Made by a program: the position numbers and the translations under genes. A stretch of 64,000 bases of DNA from Bacteroidota bacterium. Its GTDB lineage: Bacteria > Bacteroidota > Rhodothermia > Rhodothermales > UBA10348. Location of the stretch: contig JADFHF010000006.1 in NCBI GenBank assembly GCA_022567305.1, positions 62,001-126,000 on the forward strand. The letters run 5' to 3'. Below the pieces are notes generated by a model. That model saw only the letters and a list, made by a program, of their open reading frames with translations. It had not been told where the DNA came from and did no database searches. Below, in pieces: positions 32,439 to 43,608 of this stretch (position 1 is its first letter; every line of letters starts with the position of its first letter).

Positions 32439-33389
32439 TTGCAGGACTATATAAAACAGACTCTGCATGCTGTGACGGGTGCTTTCGGATACTCGGGAAA
32501 GTACATCGCCAAGCGTCTGCTTGATCAGGGTCATGAAGTCATCACTCTGACCAACTCGCCTGATCGAGCGAACCCCTTCGCTGGTCGGGTCAAGCCATAC
32601 CCCTTCAACTTCGATCACCCGGAAGAACTGACGCAATCGCTTCGGGGCGTGTCCGTGCTCTACAATACGTACTGGGTTCGGTTCAATCACAGGCTATTCA
32701 AGCACGCTGACGCAGTCAGAAACACTGAACGACTGTTTGAGGCGGCCAAAGAGGCCAATGTCGAGAGAATCGTCCACCTCAGCATCACAAATCCCTCTGA
32801 GGATTCATCGCTGGAATACTTTAGCGGAAAGGCGCGACTCGAACGAGCGCTGGCAGACTCTGGCATTTCGTACGCGATTCTTCGCCCGACGGTCCTGTTT
32901 GGCAAAGAGGATATACTGATCAACAACATCGCCTGGGCCTTGCGACGCCTTCCGGTGTTTGGTGTATTCGGAGATGGGGAGTACCGTCTGCAACCCATCT
33001 ATGTTGACGATATGGCTGCCCTTGCCGTAGAGCAAGGTGCGAGGCGAGACCATGTTACTATAGATGCCATCGGTCCAGAAACGTTCGCTTACAGAGAGCT
33101 GGTGAAAGTTATTGGCGAGACGATTGGCAAGAAACGACCGGTAATTTCAGTTCCACCAGCAGTCGGAGTTCTTGCCGCCTGGATTCTCGGCAAGTTTGTT
33201 GGCGACGTCTTGATTACCCATGAAGAAATCAAGGGACTGATGGCAGACCTTCTTCATGTAGATTCTCCCCCCGCAGGGGCCACAAGGTTGACGGACTGGA
33301 TTCGAGAGCACGCTGATTCACTGGGTAGGAAATATACAAGCGAGCTTGCTCGCCGAAAAAATACACGTACAGAGTATCAGAGCAACTAA
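32439..33389 (+). CDS. NAD(P)-dependent SDR-family (NmrA/epimerase-like) protein
   Basis: Extended short-chain dehydrogenase-like protein, 316 residues. Dinucleotide motif TGAFGYSG near residue 14, the YxxxK pair in YFSGKARLERAL, and the following ISYAILRPTVLFG, as in the NDUFA9/atypical-SDR group. The C-terminal part includes a hydrophobic segment (AVGVLAAWILGKFVG). The start is uncertain: the only in-frame start before the glycine motif is TTG 32439, without a ribosome-binding site, so the 5' end may be damaged. Substrate unknown. It might be a ketoreductase for the lipid locus at 36-41 kb, but parAB lies between, so that is speculation. Confidence 0.72.
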   Translation: MQDYIKQTLHAVTGAFGYSGKYIAKRLLDQGHEVITLTNSPDRANPFAGRVKPYPFNFDHPEELTQSLRGVSVLYNTYWVRFNHRLFKHADAVRNTERLFEAAKEANVERIVHLSITNPSEDSSLEYFSGKARLERALADSGISYAILRPTVLFGKEDILINNIAWALRRLPVFGVFGDGEYRLQPIYVDDMAALAVEQGARRDHVTIDAIGPETFAYRELVKVIGETIGKKRPVISVPPAVGVLAAWILGKFVGDVLITHEEIKGLMADLLHVDSPPAGATRLTDWIREHADSLGRKYTSELARRKNTRTEYQSN

Positions 33390-33793: not shown

Positions 33794-34663
33794 ATGGGAA
33801 AGGTAATCGCCGTAGCGAACCAGAAAGGCGGCGTCGGAAAAACGACGACAGCGGTGAATATTGCTTCGTCGCTTGCAGCGATGGAGCATCGTACGCTACT
33901 CATCGATTTCGATCCACAGGCCAATGGAACATCAGGCGTAGGCGTGGACCCAAGAACGGTTTCTGCCTCGACGTACGAAGTGCTTATCGGGACGAGCTCG
34001 CTTGCTGAGACGATTCTCGAGACGGACATGACGTTCCTTTCTTTGGCGCCGAGTCACATCAACCTCGTGGGTGCGGAGATTGAGATGGTCGATGTCCCTG
34101 ATCGGGAGCGCATTCTCCTGAATCACCTGGTTGATGTTCGCGATCGATTCGATTTCATCATTATTGACTGTCCACCATCGTTGGGTTTGTTAACGCTTAA
34201 TTCGCTTACGGCGTGCAATTCGGTGCTCATTCCCGTCCAGGCAGAATATTTTGCACTCGAAGGGCTCGGTCAACTCCTGAACACAATCAAACTCATTCGT
34301 CAGCACTTGAATCCGGGTCTGGAAATTGAAGGTGTACTGATAACCATGTTCGACAGACGATTGCGTCTCGCCAATCAGGTAGCTGGAGAGGTCCGCCGCT
34401 TTTTTGGAGAGAAAGTGTTCGATACCATCGTCCAGCGAAACGTCCGGCTTTCGGAGGCACCCAGTTTTGGTCGTCCGGTATTGCTGTATGACGCTACGAG
34501 TGTGGGCGCCAGAAATTACCTGGCCCTTACTCGTGAAATACTCATGGCCAACCGGAGCTTTCTCGAACAGTTGTCTTCGGGCGGTTCCGGTGGACCGTCG
34601 GAACTACACGAAGCGGAATCAGAGGAGGAGTTGATCGGGCACGCAGACAGAAAGTCTGCCTAA
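33794..34663 (+). CDS. parA: ParA-family chromosome partitioning ATPase
   Basis: Deviant Walker-A ATPase (Soj type) that positions ParB-DNA complexes during chromosome segregation. P-loop [12 protein letters not shown] with the signature first Lys at residue ~10, switch [12 protein letters not shown], Walker [14 protein letters not shown], and the DNA-binding Arg region [13 protein letters not shown]. Length 289; the last ~30 residues are acidic and beyond the usual Soj end. parB follows after 33 bases. Confidence 0.95.
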
Positions 34664-34696: not shown

Positions 34697-35635
34697 ATGT
34701 CGAAAAGGAAATCAGCACTGGGAAAAGGCCTTGGCGCGCTCCTCCGAACCGAGTCAGCAGAAGACCATATCGGCTCTGATCTTTCCAAAACCAGGCTGTA
34801 TAATTTCGAGGATCGTGTCCGCACGGCCGGGCAGGTCAGTGAGACGAGTATCGACTTGATCGATGCAAATCCGTATCAACCACGTACCAAGTTCGATGCC
34901 AATGGACTTGAGGAATTGGCTGCTTCGATTCGTCAATTGGGGATTATTCAACCCGTTACCGTACGATCGGTGGCCTCAGGACGGTTTCAACTGATCTCTG
35001 GGGAGAGAAGACTCCGGGCTGCTGAAATGGCCGGCCTGACTTCACTTCCGTCCTATATACGGGAGGCCGACTCCGAAGCCATGCTTGAAATGGCCCTCGT
35101 TGAGAACGTCCAACGGGAGGCTCTCAATCCGATCGAGCTTTCGCTAGGCTATCAGCGCCTGATCGACGAGTGTGGCCTGACCCAGTTCGGTGTGGCCGAA
35201 AAAGTCGGAAAGAGCAGAGCGACCGTAGCTAATTTTCTGCGTCTTCTGAAGCTGCCTCCAGAGGTTCAGGCAGCTCTGAAAGACGGAGAGGTCACGGTGG
35301 GTCACGCCCGTGCGCTACTGGCGCTGAACAGTGATAAACGAAAGATCAAACTGCTCCGTCAGATCCGATCAAAAGGACTTTCGGTTCGTGCCGTTGAAGA
35401 GTCGGTTCGAAAAACCCTGGCCGGCACGACCAATAGCGATCGGTCGAATACGACCAGATCCAAGATCGAATCCTCAGCAAGTCCGGCCGTTCGTGAACTG
35501 AGGGATCGACTTAGAAACACACTCGGCACACAAGTCCTCATCAAACCGAAATCGAACGCCAGAGGTGGGCGTATCGAGGTCGAATATTATTCGAATGACG
35601 ACCTGGATCGGCTTGTGGATTTGATGGCTGGCTAA
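34697..35635 (+). CDS. parB: ParB/Spo0J chromosome partitioning protein
   Basis: parS-binding CTPase switch. N-terminal basic KRKSALGKGLGALL (ParA-activating Arg/Lys tail), ParB box NPYQPRTKFD, the CTP-binding segment ISGERRLRAAEMAG and LVENVQREALNPIE, and a central HTH around FGVAEKVGKSRATVANFLRLL. The C-terminal dimerisation part contains LRNTLGTQVLIKP. Length 312. Cotranscribed with parA and followed after 19 bases by a DUF5683 gene. Confidence 0.95.
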   Translation: MSKRKSALGKGLGALLRTESAEDHIGSDLSKTRLYNFEDRVRTAGQVSETSIDLIDANPYQPRTKFDANGLEELAASIRQLGIIQPVTVRSVASGRFQLISGERRLRAAEMAGLTSLPSYIREADSEAMLEMALVENVQREALNPIELSLGYQRLIDECGLTQFGVAEKVGKSRATVANFLRLLKLPPEVQAALKDGEVTVGHARALLALNSDKRKIKLLRQIRSKGLSVRAVEESVRKTLAGTTNSDRSNTTRSKIESSASPAVRELRDRLRNTLGTQVLIKPKSNARGGRIEVEYYSNDDLDRLVDLMAG

Positions 35636-35654: not shown

Positions 35655-36254
35655 ATGTCAGCTGTCACGCGGTCGATCCCTTGCGTCTTCACGCCGATCT
35701 TCCTTCTGTTCTTCTTCGGATTGGTATATACCGTCTCTGGGCAAGTACGAGATCCGCCCCCTCCCGACATACGAACACCGACAGGTGCTCTTTGGAGAGC
35801 AGCCGCCGTACCGGGATGGGGACAAGCCTATAACGGGCAGTACCTGAAGTTGCCCTTCATTTACGGGGCCATGGGCGGTCTTCTATACGCCGCAACAAAG
35901 ATTGACAACGACTATAAGCTATACCGAAGAGCTTTCCTGTATAAGGCATTTCAGGAACAGCTTGATTCGGGACTGATCGAATTAAATCCTTTTGAAAATA
36001 ATCGACCCTCTTACGACGAGCTGGCCGCAAAATTTGGCCAGATCTCCTCGAGTCCCATACGGGCTCAAAGGGATACCTTTAAACGCAATAGAGATCTTTC
36101 TTATCTGGGTGTCGGCCTCGTTTACGCCCTTTCTATCCTGGACGCATATGTGAGCGCGCATCTTCTTGATTTCAATGTCGATGAAAATTTGGCCTTTCGA
36201 ATCGACCCGTCTCCGAACGGCATCCGCTTATCCGGTCGTATTGTACTACCCTGA
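35655..36254 (+). CDS. DUF5683 membrane protein
   Basis: Small membrane protein of unknown function. Signal peptide or first helix (TPIFLLFFFGLVYTVSGQ), then the family core PTGALWRAAAVPGWGQAYNG and LPFIYGAMGGLLYAA, and a second conserved block near the C-terminus (LSYLGVGLVYALSILDAYVSAHL). Placement directly after parB is common in Bacteroidota and Rhodothermota, where it often precedes lepB; lepB is absent here. No enzymatic motif is seen. Confidence 0.82.
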   Translation: MSAVTRSIPCVFTPIFLLFFFGLVYTVSGQVRDPPPPDIRTPTGALWRAAAVPGWGQAYNGQYLKLPFIYGAMGGLLYAATKIDNDYKLYRRAFLYKAFQEQLDSGLIELNPFENNRPSYDELAAKFGQISSSPIRAQRDTFKRNRDLSYLGVGLVYALSILDAYVSAHLLDFNVDENLAFRIDPSPNGIRLSGRIVLP

Positions 36255-36484
36255 GTCTAGATTCATTTTGGCGGTCCCGAAAGTCCGCCTGGAACCGAAA
36301 GTGGACGTTTTGCATTAATCGGAGCTTAATTCTTCAATCACTTCTCAAATCTTCTCCGAGAGCAGATTTGGGTGGTTGAACTACTTAGTTTACAGCTAGA
36401 TCGTATATTCAAGGATCGGTGCATGGTCTCATTTCGGTCTCAGTCGCGCACTAATGCCTCTCACCCATATTGGGGGCACCGTTT

Positions 36485-37783
36485 ATGATGCCAGAAGGCA
36501 AAAACAAGTTGGAAGCCCTGTCCAAAGTCCCTACGGTGCAGACAGCTGTCCGTAAGGTGCCAGGGCTGTTTGATAAGTGCGCGCGTTTCCTCGATCCGGG
36601 AGAAATCTACAAACAGATTAAAGAGGCCGGACTCTATCCATACTTCCGCCCGATCGAAAGGAATGATGGCACGCGTGCGATAATCAATGGCCGCGAGATC
36701 ATCATGGCGGGCTCTAACAATTACCTGGGGCTACTCTCAGACCCCCGCGTAAAAGAAGCGGCTGAAAAAGCGATTCATCAGTACGGAACTGGATGTACCG
36801 GTAGTCGCTTTCTCAATGGAACGCTCGATATCCACATTGATCTCGAGGAGCGTCTCGCCCGGTTTTTAGGTAGAGAAGCCTGCGTACTGTTCTCAACAGG
36901 ATACATGACGAACGAAGGCGTCCTGCAGGCCATTGCCGGTAAGGGTGACATCATATTCTCCGATAAGGATAATCATGCATGTATCGTTGCGGGTACGAAA
37001 ATCAGTCTCGCTGACACGATTCGTTTTCAACACAACGACACAGAGCAATTGGCCCGGCTGCTCGAGAAGTCTCGGGAGGAGCGGCCAGACGCTGGAAAAC
37101 TAATTGTCTCGGACGGTGTGTTCTCGATGAGCGGTACCATTGCTCGTATTCCGGAGCTGGTCGAACTGGCTGACTCGTATGGCGCCGCACTCTTACTGGA
37201 TGATGCCCACGCCATCGGTGTAATTGGTCCGGGGGGTCGGGGTAGTGCCGCGCACTTTGGTATACATAGTGGTGTCCACTTGACAACCGGTACGTTTTCG
37301 AAAAGTTTTGCGTCTCTCGGGGGGTTCTGTGTAGGTGATCACGATATCATTGACTATATCCGGCATACGAGTTCAACGCACATTTTCAGTGCATCGATGC
37401 CACCGGCTAATGTGGCGACCGTCCTTGCATGTCTCGATATCCTGGAACAAGAGCCCGAACGCTTGGAAAGGCTGTGGGAAATTTCCGACTACATGCGCAA
37501 CGGCTTCAGGGACGCCGGTTTAAATGTCTGGACGAGCCAGACACCAATCATTCCCGTCGTGGCAGGCAAACTCAGAGCGTGCTTCGAGATCTGGAGAGAT
37601 CTGCTAGAGGAGGGTGTCTTCGTGAATCCAATTGTTCCTCCTGCCGTGCCAAAGGGTCAATCCTTGCTGCGGACATCGTATATGGCAACACACACCAATG
37701 AAGAGCTCGATTTCATCTTGGATGCTTTCCGGCGAATCGGTCGCAAGTATGGAATCCTGAATGTAAACGGACAACCGTCTTAG
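36485..37783 (+). CDS. Serine palmitoyltransferase-like PLP enzyme (alpha-oxoamine synthase family)
   Basis: Condenses an acyl thioester with an amino acid. The PLP-binding Lys is in TGTFSKSFASLGG; other family motifs are MAGSNNYLGLLSDP, GTGCTGSRFLNGT, FSTGYMTNEGV, the substrate His region DKDNHACIV, and DDAHAIGVIGPGGRG. A ~55-residue N-terminal part (VPGLFDKCARFLDPGE and so on) precedes the catalytic fold. This, and the next two acyltransferases, favour serine palmitoyltransferase (sphingolipids) or cysteate acyltransferase (sulfonolipids) over KBL or BioF. Start ATG 36485 chosen over TTG 36470. The gene has its own 215-base leader and is followed by a terminator-like hairpin. Confidence 0.82.
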   Translation: MMPEGKNKLEALSKVPTVQTAVRKVPGLFDKCARFLDPGEIYKQIKEAGLYPYFRPIERNDGTRAIINGREIIMAGSNNYLGLLSDPRVKEAAEKAIHQYGTGCTGSRFLNGTLDIHIDLEERLARFLGREACVLFSTGYMTNEGVLQAIAGKGDIIFSDKDNHACIVAGTKISLADTIRFQHNDTEQLARLLEKSREERPDAGKLIVSDGVFSMSGTIARIPELVELADSYGAALLLDDAHAIGVIGPGGRGSAAHFGIHSGVHLTTGTFSKSFASLGGFCVGDHDIIDYIRHTSSTHIFSASMPPANVATVLACLDILEQEPERLERLWEISDYMRNGFRDAGLNVWTSQTPIIPVVAGKLRACFEIWRDLLEEGVFVNPIVPPAVPKGQSLLRTSYMATHTNEELDFILDAFRRIGRKYGILNVNGQPS

Positions 37784-37820
37784 TTTCCGAACAACTCGGT
37801 ACCGTGGAAGTAACGCAGAC

Positions 37821-37852
37821 AGGGGGCGTTCCGTTTGACGGCGCCCCTTCTT
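37821..37852 (+). terminator. Terminator-like hairpin after the palmitoyltransferase gene
   Basis: agggggcg (37821-37828) pairs with cgcccct (37842-37848) with one bulged G, followed by ttctta. It may stop or reduce transcription into the GNAT-HAD genes 95 bases on. Confidence 0.5.
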
Positions 37853-37946
37853 ACGTTAGGGAAGTGGCCAGGAAAAGGTATTGTCATCCTGAACCCTCCG
37901 ATCGATTTTCCTGGATTTTCTCTATTCATTCGATCAAAAAAGAGAC

Positions 37947-39083
37947 ATGGCTGCAGTTAGCGTATTCCGGGTAAACTCAAGCTCTGCGCGGCGAGCGTTT
38001 ATCAGCTATGTGTACAGACTGTATCAAAGTGATCAATTTTGGATACCACCGCTACGGCTTGATGCCGCGCGAGTACTGAACCCGAAGAAGAACGCCTTTT
38101 TTGAACACGGGCAAATTGAACTTTTTTTGGCAAAGGATAAAAGCGGTTTGATCGTTGGAAGAATTGCGGCTATAGTCAACGGAATGCACCTGAAGAAATA
38201 TGACGATGGTGTAGGTTTTTTTGGGTTTTTTGAATGCGAAGATGACTCGAATGTCGCCCAACTGCTTTTTGAAACAGCATCCGATTGGCTCCGGAAACAG
38301 GATCTGCGGGCTATGCGCGGACCTGTCAACCCGTCTCTTAACGACACGGCTGGATTACTGGTAGACGGGTTCGAACGCCGGCCTGCCATTCTCATGCCAT
38401 ACCACAAACCCTATTACGAGCGGCTGTTGTTAGAGGTAGGGTTCGAACGAGTCATGACCATGTGGTCGTACTACGCCCATCCGAGACTGATCAACGAAGA
38501 GCGACTGAACCGGGGTGCTAAGATTGTTCTCGGGAGGAATCCCAACTTTACGATTCGAATTATTGACATGGACGACTGGGAGAACGAAGTACGTATCATG
38601 CTCGATATATTCAACGATGCCTGGTCCGAAAACTGGGGTCATGTCCCCATGACCAAACGTGAAGTCCAGCAGCTTGCGGACGAAATGAGAATGATTGTGA
38701 TTCCAGAACTCTTCAATTTTGTCGAAGATGATGGAGAGCCTATCGGATTTAGCGCTTCCTTACCCGACCTCAATTACATCTTTTCAACGATCCGAAACGG
38801 TCGTCTTTTTCCTACGGGCGGGTTAAAACTCTTACTGGGTATGAAATTGAAGCTCGTGCGTGAGACGCGCATGCCGTTGATGGGTGTAAAGAAAAGTCAC
38901 CATGGAAAAGGTGTGGATGCTCTCATTGTTGCCGACATGCTAAAACGACATAGGTCGATCGGTATGCAGGGATGTGAGATGAGTTGGGTTCTCGACAGCA
39001 ACAACCGTATGAAGAATTTTCTAACTAGCATGGGCGCGGTGAAGGAAAACGAATACGCGCTCTACGAGAAGTCTATCCAGTGA
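37947..39083 (+). CDS. GNAT-fold acyltransferase, copy 1 (candidate ceramide-synthase-like)
   Basis: 378-residue protein with an acyl-CoA N-acyltransferase (GNAT-like) character, closely paralogous to the gene at 39715. Conserved blocks shared by both: RVLNPKKNAFFEHG-type N-terminal block, IVGRIAAIVNGMHLKKY, GVGFFGFFECEDD, MRGPVNPSLNDTAGLLVDGF, NDAWSENWGHVPMT, IRNGRLFPTGGLK and MPLMGVKKSHHGKGVDALI, the last resembling an acyl-CoA-binding loop, and a final QGCEMSWVLDSNN. Size and neighbourhood match bacterial N-acyltransferases of sphingolipid synthesis such as Caulobacter bCerS (from memory; inference). The stop overlaps the HAD start (TGATG). Confidence 0.72.
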   Translation: MAAVSVFRVNSSSARRAFISYVYRLYQSDQFWIPPLRLDAARVLNPKKNAFFEHGQIELFLAKDKSGLIVGRIAAIVNGMHLKKYDDGVGFFGFFECEDDSNVAQLLFETASDWLRKQDLRAMRGPVNPSLNDTAGLLVDGFERRPAILMPYHKPYYERLLLEVGFERVMTMWSYYAHPRLINEERLNRGAKIVLGRNPNFTIRIIDMDDWENEVRIMLDIFNDAWSENWGHVPMTKREVQQLADEMRMIVIPELFNFVEDDGEPIGFSASLPDLNYIFSTIRNGRLFPTGGLKLLLGMKLKLVRETRMPLMGVKKSHHGKGVDALIVADMLKRHRSIGMQGCEMSWVLDSNNRMKNFLTSMGAVKENEYALYEKSIQ

Positions 39084-39730
39084 TGGCCCGATTCTCCTTT
39101 GTTTACTTCGGTCTTGATGACACACTGTTGGATCTCCGGCGAACCGAGTATATGGCGCTTGCAGACCTTCACGTCAAGAACTACCTCGCCAGGTACCCGG
39201 AGTACGGGTCGAATATCCCTGGAGCCCAGGCCGCTTTTGTCATCACCGCCGAGGCGTATTCGGTGGGCATTTTGACTAACGGATTTGTCGAGGTTCAGCA
39301 TGCAAAAATGGACCAGTTTCCCGAACTAAGGGGTCGTGCGTCCGCCATGGTTATCAGCGAGGAGGTAGGTTTCATGAAGCCGGACCCGAGGATCTTCGCG
39401 CATGCAACCCAACTAGCTGCTGCAGACCCAGGCGAGATCCTGTATACCGGAGATTCCTATCGATCGGATGTACAAGGAGGAGCCGCAGCAAGATGGAATG
39501 CGGCCTGGTTCTCTCCAGGCGAAGATGACGGAAAACCGGACCATCGATTCCAAGACTCAACGGAACCAGCTTCTTTGCATAAATCTGCAGTAGCCCGCGG
39601 GTCAGCGACCCCCCCCATATCTGTTTCTTTCCTTCAGTATGGGCTGTTATTTTGCCAGTCTCTATTATTCTTTCAAAAATTCGATCCCGCCTCTCATCAT
39701 CAGCGTAGGCACGCATGGCAACATCCTTGA
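39083..39730 (+). pseudogene. Degenerate HAD hydrolase, copy 1
   Basis: Paralogue of the gene at 40851 but damaged in three ways. The nucleophile Asp10 of FDLDDTLLD is Gly (FGLDDTLLD; GAT to GGT). Compared with copy 2, residues 31-93 are missing by an in-frame deletion that removes most of the cap domain. After DGKPDHRF the sequence no longer matches and continues through low-quality coding with a run of eight C (39609-39616) into the next gene. Motifs II-IV remain (ILTNGF, MKPDPRIF, GDSYRSDV). It still follows copy 1 of the acyltransferase with the same TGATG overlap, so it was once functional. Homology ends near 39547. Confidence 0.85.
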
Positions 39731-40851
39731 TTTCCCGAGTGACATCCGGCTCGGACCGAAGGGCCTTTCTCGGCTATCCGTATCGTCTGTATCGGGAAGA
39801 TCGGCACTGGATTGCGCCTCTTCGACTCGATACCAAGCGCATTCTTAACCCGAAGAAAAACGCATTCTTCGAACACGGCGACATTCAGCTTTTTGTCGCC
39901 AGAGATTCGAGTCGTACGATCGTCGGAAGAATTGCAGCCATTATCAACGGGATGCACCTCAAGAAATACAACGATGGGGTAGGCTTCTTTGGCTTTTTTG
40001 AGTGCGAAGACGACACAGAAGTGGCCAAACAGCTGATTGACGAAGCCTCTGCCTGGCTCGTCGACCACGGATTGAAAACGGTCCGCGGGCCCGCAAACCC
40101 ATCTCTGAACGATACCTCAGGCCTCCTTGTCGACGGCTTTCACCGCTCTCCTGCCATCCTTATGCCCTACAACAAGCCCTACTACGAGCGATTGTTTGCA
40201 GACTGCGGATTAGAACGGGTGATGACGATGTGGTCGTATCACTTAATCGAACGGGATGCCGATATGGAGAGACTCGAGCGCGGTGCAAAACTCGTCCTGG
40301 CTAGAAATCCTATGTTGTCGGTCCGAATTTTCGACATGTCGGATTTCGAAAACGACATGCAAACGATGCTAGACATCTTTAATGATGCCTGGTCGGATAA
40401 CTGGGGGCATGTTCCAATGACTGACGGAGAGATCCGGCAGATCGCGGCTGAGATGAAGATGATCATTAGACCGGAACTGATCAATTTCGTAGAGGATGAC
40501 GGCGTCCCGGTCGGTTTCAGCGCTTCCATTCTAGATCTCAACTATACTTTATCGACGATTCGGAACGGTCGACTCTTCCCTACGGGTGCGCTGAAACTGT
40601 TTTTCGCTTTGAAATTGAACCTGATCAAAGAGATCCGGATGCCACTCATGGGGGTGAAGAAAAGCCATCATGGACGAGGGATCGACGCGCTGTTGGTCGC
40701 CGACATTGTGAAACGCGGCCTGGCGATCGGAATACAGGGATGTGAGATGAGCTGGGTTCTGGACGACAACGAGCGCCTGAAGAATTTTCTGGTCGGCATA
40801 GGCGGAGTAAAGGAAAACGAATATGCGCTGTTCGAAAAAGGCCTGACCTGA
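39715..40851 (+). CDS. GNAT-fold acyltransferase, copy 2 (candidate ceramide-synthase-like)
   Basis: Tandem paralogue of the gene at 37947: also 378 residues, with about two thirds identical residues by eye and no gaps seen. Same conserved blocks (NPKKNAFFEHGDIQLF, IINGMHLKKYNDGVGFFG, RGPANPSLNDTSGLLVDGF, MPLMGVKKSHHGRGIDALL, QGCEMSWVLDDNE). Differences concentrate at the N-terminus and between residues ~165 and 190, where substrate preference could have diverged. Coupled to an intact HAD gene by a TGATG overlap. Probable role: N-acylation of a long-chain base made by the enzyme at 36485 (inference from neighbourhood). Confidence 0.74.
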   Translation: MATSLISRVTSGSDRRAFLGYPYRLYREDRHWIAPLRLDTKRILNPKKNAFFEHGDIQLFVARDSSRTIVGRIAAIINGMHLKKYNDGVGFFGFFECEDDTEVAKQLIDEASAWLVDHGLKTVRGPANPSLNDTSGLLVDGFHRSPAILMPYNKPYYERLFADCGLERVMTMWSYHLIERDADMERLERGAKLVLARNPMLSVRIFDMSDFENDMQTMLDIFNDAWSDNWGHVPMTDGEIRQIAAEMKMIIRPELINFVEDDGVPVGFSASILDLNYTLSTIRNGRLFPTGALKLFFALKLNLIKEIRMPLMGVKKSHHGRGIDALLVADIVKRGLAIGIQGCEMSWVLDDNERLKNFLVGIGGVKENEYALFEKGLT

Positions 40852-41555
40852 TGGCCGACTACTCGTTCGTTTATTTTGATTTGGATGATACATTGCTCGA
40901 CCACCGCAGAGCAGAACGGCTCGCCCTTGGCAATCTCCACGAATTCTATTTGACCCTGTTCGACGGGCTTAACTTGACGTCTGTCCAGGACACCTACCAT
41001 GAGGTGAATACGGATGTTTGGCACAGATACGGAGATGGTCTGATCTCGAAAGAAAGGGCGAAACTGGAACGATTTGAACTCCTGCTTGAGAGACTTTTGA
41101 TAGATGGTCGCGCCCTTGCAGCGGATCTGAGCACCTATTACATGAGTCGATACGCGGAACATTGGTCCTTCGTACCGGGTGGCCGGGATGCGTTTCTAAC
41201 GATCGCTGACTCATTCCAGGTTGGCATCTTGACGAACGGTTTTACTGAAGTCCAGAATGACAAATTGGCTCGGTTCCCAGAAATCAAACGAGCAAGTTCT
41301 ACGATCGTTATCAGTGAGGAAGTCGGTTTCATGAAGCCTGATCCTCGCATCTTCCACCATGCAGCTGCGTTGGCGAACTGTTCTCCTGCGGATATACTCT
41401 ATATCGGAGATTCGTACCGCTCAGATGTCACGGGAGGAAAGGTTGCAGGATGGAATGTGGCCTGGTTCTCCCCTGGTGGAGAAAATGGAAAACCGGAACG
41501 TTGCTTCCGGGCCTGGCCAGAAATACTGGCGTGGATGGATCTTCCATCCGAGTGA
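40851..41555 (+). CDS. HAD-superfamily hydrolase (YjjG-like), copy 2, intact
   Basis: Phosphatase or nucleotidase of HAD subfamily IA. Nucleophile motif FDLDDTLLD (Asp10, Asp12), helical cap (residues ~30-105), motif II LTNGF, motif III Lys in MKPDPRIF, motif IV GDSYRSD. Layout and the VISEEVGFMKPDPR stretch are those of the YjjG group of noncanonical pyrimidine nucleotidases, but the lipid-like neighbourhood leaves other phosphomonoesters possible. Length 234. Translationally coupled to acyltransferase copy 2; the first module's HAD is broken, so this may serve both. Confidence 0.86.
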   Translation: MADYSFVYFDLDDTLLDHRRAERLALGNLHEFYLTLFDGLNLTSVQDTYHEVNTDVWHRYGDGLISKERAKLERFELLLERLLIDGRALAADLSTYYMSRYAEHWSFVPGGRDAFLTIADSFQVGILTNGFTEVQNDKLARFPEIKRASSTIVISEEVGFMKPDPRIFHHAAALANCSPADILYIGDSYRSDVTGGKVAGWNVAWFSPGGENGKPERCFRAWPEILAWMDLPSE

Positions 41556-42058
41556 TCGGTGGTTAATGACCACCTTTCCCGTGCAGATTGCGCTTTCTGC
41601 AAACAAATTCTACGAACAAAAAAAGCCACTCTCGCGGAGCAGCCCCTTTTGTTTCCTGACGCTCGAACCTCCCTTGGATTGGATCTCCCACCGAAGCAGT
41701 AGTGCCGCACCATCTGGGAGGTTCAGAATCTCTTGGTTTCCATTTCACCGGTTGCCCGGTGTCCTGGAGACACAGTCGGTTCTTTCGAACGTTCTGCGCT
41801 CGTCTAATACCGTATGGGCACACGACGTAGACAGCTCGCCCACGGACGGTTTCATGTGATCCTTCTTGAACCCGAAGGTTCTTTCCGGTCACACTTTCAT
41901 GTGTTTCGTCCGTCGCTCCGAAGAGTGATTTTCGTTGCACACTTTCACACACGCCAGATTCGATCCCGAAAGATCAATTCCGTTGTGCATGACCATGGAT
42001 CTGCTCTGAATTACCGAAGTATTTCTGAGATGGTACACGGTTCTCTTCCCTTCTGACC

Positions 42059-42074
42059 CGTCTCCGAAGAGACG
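42059..42074 (-). other. Hairpin with cUUCGg tetraloop
   Basis: Minus strand reads cgtctc-ttcg-gagacg, a perfect six-base stem closed by the extra-stable cUUCGg tetraloop common in structured RNAs. No gene adjoins it. Confidence 0.4.
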
Positions 42075-42770
42075 CGACAGCATGTAGAGAAGATGATTCC
42101 TCGCTTGCTACGTAACCCACCCGCTCGCCCATTAACGGCCGAAGCCATTTACGGTCTTGCTGATAGTATAGCATGCGGGGTTCTCCTTGGACCTGAACGA
42201 TTCGCCGGGACGATTCAATTCTGGTTCCAGGGAGGAATTGCTCACTTTACACGAACCTCTCTTTTGCCGAAGCAATCGAGTGATCGGTGCCAAGCCATCT
42301 TCTACCTTTCACCGGTCACTTGCCTTAAATGTCCAAACCTTGCGGTCCTTCGATTTTCGGCATCACGGTGATCGACATCCGATGCGAAACTAACTCCAGT
42401 CATTTACTCTCGAGAAGTTCATGACCTTCATCGCTAGCCGGAGCGTCGTCCTTGCGATCTTTCGATCGCGTGCGGGCCAACCTCATGCAGCCTAGAGACT
42501 CAGTCGCGTCAAGGAACGGTGCCGTTAAGCACTGGACGTATAATATCTAGGGACTGTCCGTAAGTCAATAGGACCCGGCTCGCTTTTAGTCCACAAAGAG
42601 TGCACAGAGATATCCACAGGTTTTCAGATGTTCTTGGGCCACAGAGCCTACGCGGGCTCGGGGGACGTGCGAACTTGAGCCGAACAAATTGGGTCTCGCA
42701 TGGGCTGAGTATTTCATAGCTTCCTGAGACTTCCGCCGGTCTCTACCGAGCACCCACTTCCCCAAAGCGC

Positions 42771-42801
42771 AAAAAGCCCGGCCGAAGAGACCGAGCTTTT
42801 T
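42771..42801. terminator. Intrinsic terminator-like hairpin
   Basis: aaaaagcccgg (42771-42781) pairs with ccgagcttttt (42791-42801) with one mismatch; the loop is nine bases. The A/T-ended arms make it usable on both strands: for the minus-strand rhomboid gene (stop at 42988) and for any plus-strand transcript from the GNAT-HAD genes. Confidence 0.6.
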
Positions 42802-42987
42802 GGTGCCCATTTTCTCTACGCGACTGAGAGCTCCCGGTCCGGGGTGCTTTCCAGGCGACATGAGTAATCCAAAGATACGCTGACATTCTCAGTTACGCAA
42901 AAAACAATAACGGTTTATTCTCTCGTTCTAGTAGAAAAACGAAAGGATATTGCAAAAATACGTGATAACAGTCGAGTCCAATAACGG

Positions 42988-43608
42988 TTATAACCCGATC
43001 TGTCCTAAAAAGATTTGGATCGATCTCGGCTCGATGAGAATGGTAAGGAGCACACCTCCGATAGCACCCCCGAGATGAGCCTCGTGTGCGATTCGACCCA
43101 GTTCGCCTTTGAATTTCTTCTTCATAGCGTAAATGGAAAACCCGACGAAGGCGAGCGCAAAAAACCATGCTGGCATCGGAACGACAAAGAACAATATCAG
43201 CTGCCGAAAAGGATTAAATAGACAAAAGGCGAAGACCAGTCCAGATATTGAACCGGACGCCCCGACCGCCGAGTAATTTTCATTCGAGCGATGAATGAAG
43301 TAAGAGAAAGCGCTCGCGGTCAAACTGGATCCGAAGTAAATCAAGAGGAAAGAAACGGAGCCAAGCGTGAGCTCGAGAAATGGCCCAAAATAATAGAGCG
43401 TAATCATGTTGAACGCCAGATGACCCAAGCCCGCATGAACGAATCCTCCGGTGATCAGTCTGTAGTATTCACGATGATCTCGAATTCGACTCGGTGTAAA
43501 GGCCATTCGACCTACGAGTGACGGATCCATGTTGAGCGAGTAGAGCCCTATCAGTCCGTTCACGAGAAGCAGAAAAAGGGAGAATGGAGCCTCTGTAAAA
43601 ATGCTCAT
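42988..43608 (-). CDS. Rhomboid-family intramembrane serine protease
   Basis: Six-helix intramembrane protease, 206 residues. Conserved His pair in GGFVHAGLGHLAFNM, catalytic Ser in GASGSISG (GxSG) and catalytic His in HEAHLGGAIGG. Active-site residues are complete. Substrate unknown. Minus strand, facing a 1.4-kb gene-free region; the sigma-factor gene lies ~175 bases upstream in the same direction. Confidence 0.92.
   Translation of the reverse strand: MSIFTEAPFSLFLLLVNGLIGLYSLNMDPSLVGRMAFTPSRIRDHREYYRLITGGFVHAGLGHLAFNMITLYYFGPFLELTLGSVSFLLIYFGSSLTASAFSYFIHRSNENYSAVGASGSISGLVFAFCLFNPFRQLILFFVVPMPAWFFALAFVGFSIYAMKKKFKGELGRIAHEAHLGGAIGGVLLTILIEPRSIQIFLGQIGL

Follow-up and report, generated by a model that had tools for sequence, protein, structure and literature searches.

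We analysed a 64,000-nucleotide stretch of DNA from a Bacteroidota bacterium of the order Rhodothermales, hereafter the window (bases 62001-126000 of contig 19 of the host genome, which comprises 3.76 Mb in 115 contigs). It contains a putative ceramide-synthesis locus, in which a gene for a pyridoxal phosphate (PLP)-dependent enzyme (spt) is followed by two genes for 378-residue GNAT-type proteins (GN1 and GN2), each followed by a gene of the HAD hydrolase family (HAD1 and HAD2). The spt frame starts with an ATG at 36485, and an in-frame TTG lies at 36470. The stop codon of GN1 (TGA, 39081-39083) overlaps the ATG of HAD1 at 39083, and that of GN2 (TGA, 40849-40851) overlaps the ATG of HAD2 at 40851, both forming the sequence TGATG. 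A promoter and terminator scan gave no clear signal where the genes of the locus begin or end. An earlier note on this DNA had described two tandem modules, each consisting of a 378-residue protein and a HAD hydrolase. All of these reading frames and both overlaps were found as described, but the modules are unequal, and the lesions of HAD1 rule out two intact GNAT-HAD modules.

Table 1. Predicted genes of the locus, the reductase candidate of the host genome and the neighbouring genes; positions refer to the window unless stated otherwise.
Feature	Position	Strand	Basis or context
spt, putative serine palmitoyltransferase (alpha-oxoamine synthase), 432 aa	36485..37783	+	NF047600, PDB matches, Ala at PLP-Lys+30, tree
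GN1, first putative bCerS-type N-acyltransferase copy, 378 aa	37947..39083	+	Identity to GNATs of Spt clusters
HAD1, probable decayed HAD hydrolase remnant	39083..39730	+	Asp nucleophile replaced by Gly, deletion in the cap, frameshift near the C-terminus
GN2, second putative bCerS-type N-acyltransferase copy, 378 aa	39715..40851	+	Identity to GNATs of Spt clusters; GNAT-type fold model
HAD2, intact HAD-IA hydrolase, YjjG/YfnB-like, 234 aa	40851..41555	+	TIGR02254, Pfam PF00702/PF13419, PDB 3qnm, YfnB
CerR candidate, NAD-dependent reductase	Host genome, C97:4125-5099		Homology only; beside an RNA methyltransferase-like open reading frame, unlinked to spt
parA	33794-34663	+	Upstream context; named from sequence
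parB	34697-35635	+	Upstream context; named from sequence; order conserved in relatives
DUF5683 protein	35655-36254	+	Upstream context; Pfam DUF5683; order conserved in relatives
Rhomboid protease	42988..43608	-	Downstream context; Pfam PF01694; same position in relatives

The PLP-dependent enzyme is predicted to be a serine palmitoyltransferase (Spt). Its best NCBIfam model was NF047600 (SerpalmtaseCFB, 490.6 bits), compared with 382 bits for BioF and 312-370 bits for KBL. The closest structures in the PDB were those of Sphingobacterium multivorum Spt (8guh and 3a2b, E-value 5e-119), which it matched far better than the cysteate acyltransferase 28eh (2e-72) or 7u7h. The cysteate acyltransferase SulA (CFAT) and Spt share a common fold, but Lys281 of SulA, located 30 residues past the PLP lysine, is replaced by alanine in Spt, and this position can be used to separate the two enzymes (PMC9304779). 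In the window enzyme, which has the same alpha-oxoamine synthase fold as SulA, the PLP lysine lies in TFSKS and the residue at PLP-Lys+30 is alanine (GTFSKSFASLGG and FSASM), as in Spt. Alanine was also found at this position in 30 out of 30 distinct Spts of relatives. In a tree of 37 homologues, the window enzyme grouped with Spts adjoining GNAT genes in Bacteroidota and Ignavibacteriota, and the KBL/BioF-type paralogues of the same order formed a separate group (97/90 support). The sole other alpha-oxoamine synthase homologue found in the host genome is a KBL (655.7 bits, cut-off 493). A KBL or BioF identity of the PLP-dependent enzyme, which would have spoken against the palmitoyltransferase-type assignment proposed in the earlier note, is thus ruled out by the tree, KBL being a different gene of this genome, and the family models, the structure matches and the alanine all favour that assignment.

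For the 378-residue proteins, the Pfam and NCBIfam libraries gave no model matches, a single-sequence search of the PDB gave none either, and a profile search returned only weak GNAT matches. Since these searches gave little, a fold model was used for the GNAT assignment. The structure of GN2, predicted with an alignment composed only of proteins of the window and of relatives' genomes, had a GNAT-type fold (pLDDT 81), and its structural matches extended over nearly the whole length: the tandem GNAT MAB_4324 (7q3a, Z 24.2), mycothiol synthase (20.5) and N-myristoyltransferase (about 16). These known acyltransferases are like the 378-residue proteins in fold, but their sequences are only 8-15% identical and their substrates are different. 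The model speaks for a GNAT-type fold of the 378-residue proteins and bears on the fold alone.

A protein search of annotated plasmids yielded full-length relatives of the two proteins at 32-36% identity, several of which belong to clear sphingolipid clusters; the clusters compared were from Sphingomonas, Pseudomonas, Roseomonas, Streptomyces and Aureispira. Aligned nearly end to end with the GNATs of Spt clusters, GN1 shows 32-35% identity and GN2 32-36%. The Sphingomonas cluster comprises an NAD(P)-binding protein, an acyl carrier protein, an Spt-type enzyme, LptF, LptG and the GNAT, and that of Pseudomonas an Spt-type enzyme, an acyl carrier protein, a CerR-like reductase, an acyl-AMP ligase and the GNAT, together with a nucleotidyltransferase, LptF, LptG and a lipid kinase-like gene. 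In Roseomonas the order is LptF, LptG, desaturase, GNAT and nucleotidyltransferase, and in Streptomyces an Spt-type enzyme, the GNAT and an epimerase form a run of three genes. In the CC_1152-CC_1168 region of Caulobacter, the N-acyltransferase CerS is encoded by CC_1154, a nucleotidyltransferase by CC_1153, and LptF2 and LptG2 by CC_1156 and CC_1155 (PMC11324152). The order of LptF-LptG, GNAT and nucleotidyltransferase in Roseomonas and the gene set of Pseudomonas match Caulobacter CC_1156-CC_1153 (PMC11324152). Because the gene set of their relatives' clusters matches the CC_1152-CC_1168 region, we took the 378-residue proteins to be homologues of bacterial ceramide synthase (bCerS). N-acylation of a long-chain base, the role that the earlier note had proposed, is the best assignment for GN1 and GN2, given their end-to-end homology to this family, via the N-acyltransferases of syntenic ceramide clusters, and their linkage to spt.

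The pairing of the two genes is widespread. In an order-wide survey of 114 Rhodothermales genomes, 77 of them of good quality, the GNAT was found in 111, including 77/77 of good quality. Most of the Rhodothermales share the gene order parB-DUF5683-spt-GNAT-HAD and have a rhomboid gene downstream of it, the usual arrangement being parAB-DUF5683-spt-bcerS-HAD. Genes inserted into the locus in genomes G030 (between spt and GNAT) and G032 (between GNAT and HAD) are of the polyamine type and of the methyltransferase/transposase type, unrelated to lipids. In almost every locus of the order spt adjoins GNAT, and the same holds in other phyla: a scan of named genomes showed GNAT relatives next to spt in KSB1, Ignavibacteriota, Calditrichota, Planctomycetota, Stahlbacteria/WOR-3, Chloroflexota, Elusimicrobiota and Saprospirales. 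No paper joining Rhodothermota with ceramide was found in a literature search. A near-universal Spt-bCerS locus is now placed in the Rhodothermales, for which the literature searched holds no genetic account of sphingolipids.

The reductase expected from the known pathway may be encoded elsewhere. The reductase located beside spt in Aureispira had one clear relative in each of the ten Rhodothermales genomes searched (35-42% identity), and in the host genome this is the CerR candidate of Table 1. The window itself contains a 316-residue NAD-dependent epimerase-like open reading frame upstream of parA (32439-33389, + strand). It was rejected as CerR, being only 22-27% identical to the cluster reductases; the C97 candidate is better.

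The tandem duplication of bcerS-HAD is the new element of the locus. GN1 and GN2 are 68% identical, and in a tree of 61 homologues they are sisters (100/99 support, branch lengths 0.27 and 0.31), so that a duplication, not a chance match, explains the pair. The two nest in one clade with the single-copy genomes G006, G005 and G012, and a tandem bCerS pair was found in 1/114 Rhodothermales genomes, i.e. in the window lineage only. The silent sites between GN1 and GN2 are saturated (pS 0.75), which makes dN/dS uninformative; given 68% residue identity despite this saturation, the duplication appears to be old and both copies to be under purifying selection. Each copy departs from 9 of 111 family-conserved positions, with 5 departures in common, and no active-site signature separating GN1 from GN2 was found among these 111 positions. 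The copies may have divided the work, differing in the acyl chain, the acyl carrier or the long-chain base. This would be an addition to the assignment as ceramide synthases, not an alternative to it, and we propose it tentatively, at somewhat under even chances. Both copies survive with their conserved positions mostly intact, and GN1 was retained although its partner HAD was lost; on the other hand, the evenly spread departures give no one-sided signature, and dosage alone could keep both copies. In either case, the locus offers a natural case of a duplicated ceramide synthase, whose copies can be compared for chain choice.

HAD2 is intact, with motif I (FDLDDT) and the cap region present as in its orthologues. 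Its best family match was TIGR02254 (YjjG/YfnB noncanonical pyrimidine nucleotidase; 141 bits, under the cut-off of 159.9); this is the closest family, and HAD2 may act as such a nucleotidase. Further matches were PF00702/PF13419 in Pfam, 3qnm in the PDB and YfnB. At E-values of up to 1e-30, HAD orthologues were detected in 86 of the 114 genomes and in 54 of the 77 of good quality; all 23 good-quality genomes in which the orthologue is missing keep the acyltransferase. Of the co-occurrence that the earlier note had suggested looking for, the Spt-GNAT part proved near-universal, and the HAD part held in a portion of the genomes. None of the listed members of family f15 (e.g. G038, G044-G058) has the orthologue, and it is also missing in G005 and G033, although every one of these genomes retains the GNAT; the f15 genomes thus constitute natural controls for any role of the HAD. 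Judged from coordinates, HAD adjoins GNAT in about 74 of the 86 genomes and clearly does not in 7, and 5 could not be assigned, owing to a contig end or to the lack of a GNAT hit. The two genes overlap by 4 bases in 12 of 29 distinct loci and are unlinked in family f4 and in other genomes. The scan of named genomes revealed no HAD relative near spt or GNAT outside the Rhodothermales, and a literature search found no paper joining HAD hydrolases with Spt. Because the HAD is absent from 23/77 genomes that keep the GNAT and was seen only in the Rhodothermales, we regard it as a lineage-limited, dispensable neighbour of the ceramide genes.

The overlapping or closely spaced frames in many relatives, and the adjacency in most genomes that have the HAD, would fit a pathway enzyme coupled to bCerS, which dephosphorylates a sphingoid intermediate (long-chain base phosphate or ceramide phosphate) or a head-group precursor. 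We consider this unlikely. Apart from the losses, the unlinked cases and the restriction to one order, the HAD is decayed in the first module of the window, and its nearest relatives are soluble nucleotidases. Moreover, spt has parB and DUF5683 beside it as well in most of these loci, so that adjacency by itself is weak evidence. The repeated functional coupling and the extra dephosphorylation step suggested earlier are hence not supported, given the decay of HAD1 and the dispensability of the HAD, and what first seemed a new pathway step has proved a lineage-limited, dispensable association.

HAD1 was aligned with 43 orthologues. Its motif I has lost the nucleophilic aspartate (D10 to G; FVYFGLDDT versus FVYFDLDDT), and about 62 residues of the cap are missing. 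Near the C-terminus the frame is shifted and continues into the start of the GN2 gene; what are likely remains of the usual C-terminus can still be read, as far as a stop, in a different frame (SKTQRNQLLCINLQ*). Of the 49 positions that at least 95% of the orthologues share, HAD1 deviates at 12, compared with 4 in the next worst orthologue. These features suggest that HAD1 is a remnant. Since its frame is otherwise open, with a divergence close to that between HAD2 and relatives, the decay is probably recent relative to the duplication. An in-frame cap deletion, the open remaining frame and a HAD1-HAD2 divergence resembling that of HAD2 to its relatives would also suit a working cap-less pseudoenzyme or regulator, but we find this very unlikely in view of three distinct lesions, including a frameshift by which the C-terminus is replaced and the frame enters the next gene. 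Just as improbable is a broader proposal, that a Rhodothermales HAD phosphatase, translationally coupled to ceramide synthase, performs a dephosphorylation in sphingolipid assembly that is not known from other bacteria, and that the window lineage has divided bCerS between two specialised copies, of which just one still needs the phosphatase.

Taken together, the locus is very probably the core ceramide-synthesis locus of a Rhodothermales bacterium, in which bcerS-HAD was duplicated, the upstream HAD decayed and the remaining HAD is accessory. The bCerS-type GNATs would attach the second acyl chain to the amine, as homology and gene context suggest, and the unlinked CerR-type reductase would reduce the keto group. 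In the window lineage, an old tandem duplication produced the two bcerS-HAD pairs; both acyltransferase copies have been kept under selection, and the upstream HAD has since been deprived of its catalytic nucleophile, cap and C-terminus. The remaining HAD would most likely be a YjjG/YfnB-like phosphatase, soluble and acting on small molecules, which belongs to the same operon without being required for ceramide synthesis. Homology, gene order, distribution and lesions were observed, and every catalytic step and the lipid product are deduced from them. Several points weigh against this interpretation. The window Spt scores below the NCBIfam equivalog cut-offs (490.6 versus 640 for NF047600), and the homology to Caulobacter CerS (CC_1154) runs via its syntenic relatives. 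The HAD1 lesions are those seen in the assembly, and the otherwise open frame of HAD1, with a protein divergence about the same as that of HAD2, means either that the decay is recent or that the remnant is still useful.

Sulfonolipids are known from Salinibacter relatives, and the earlier note had accordingly considered a sulfonolipid branch. That the locus makes sulfonolipids, with the PLP-dependent enzyme as the cysteate acyltransferase and the GNATs N-acylating capnine, is barely credible even though SulA and Spt are alike in fold: the Lys281 criterion and the match scores described above rule out a SulA identity, the host's only other alpha-oxoamine synthase is KBL, and in Salinibacter altiplanensis and Salinivenus lutea this Spt is accompanied by a single further homologue (34%), which in Salinibacter is KBL. 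A sequence-level search of the locus, the host genome and the Spts of relatives found no evidence for sulfonolipids.

A number of further observations were made. Genome G030 encodes an alpha-oxoamine synthase with lysine at the SulA Lys281 position (IFAKSLP; L153:1531-2643), which sits inside a 1171-residue open frame and is possibly a fused SulA-like enzyme. In genome G035, a cluster apart from the standard locus (L036:6738-12671) contains a second, divergent GNAT (41% to GN2), an Spt-like enzyme (40%), a P450-like open reading frame and another open reading frame, and may represent another sphingolipid-like pathway. The host genome carries, on C57 (L034:5388-16534, - strand), a divergent bCerS-like GNAT of 376 residues (28% to GN2). 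It belongs to a second lipid-like cluster, which also encodes a phosphatidylserine decarboxylase family protein, pieces of MMPL transporter, a DUF3419 (BtaA-like) protein, a PEP-utilising/PPDK-N enzyme and a male-sterility-type (fatty acyl reductase-like) protein. In the window, no convincing gene was seen in the approximately 1.3 kb between HAD2 and the rhomboid gene (41556-42900).

The closest known counterpart is the ceramide system of Caulobacter crescentus (Spt CC_1162, bCerS/CerS CC_1154 and CerR CC_1164). Like it, the window locus has a predicted Spt and a GNAT-type N-acyltransferase, the latter homologous over its full length to that of the syntenic proteobacterial clusters, and the host genome has a CerR-like reductase. 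Unlike in Caulobacter, the CerR candidate is unlinked, no AcpR or AasR gene lies beside spt, and bcerS is doubled and followed by a HAD gene. The Spt-bCerS pairs of Ignavibacteriota, Calditrichota, Planctomycetota, Saprospirales, Chloroflexota and others have spt directly followed by the GNAT, as in the window, but with one acyltransferase copy and no HAD neighbour found, whereas the window locus has two copies and HAD genes. Judged by these comparisons, the locus appears to be a new example of the known ceramide pathway, not a new pathway.

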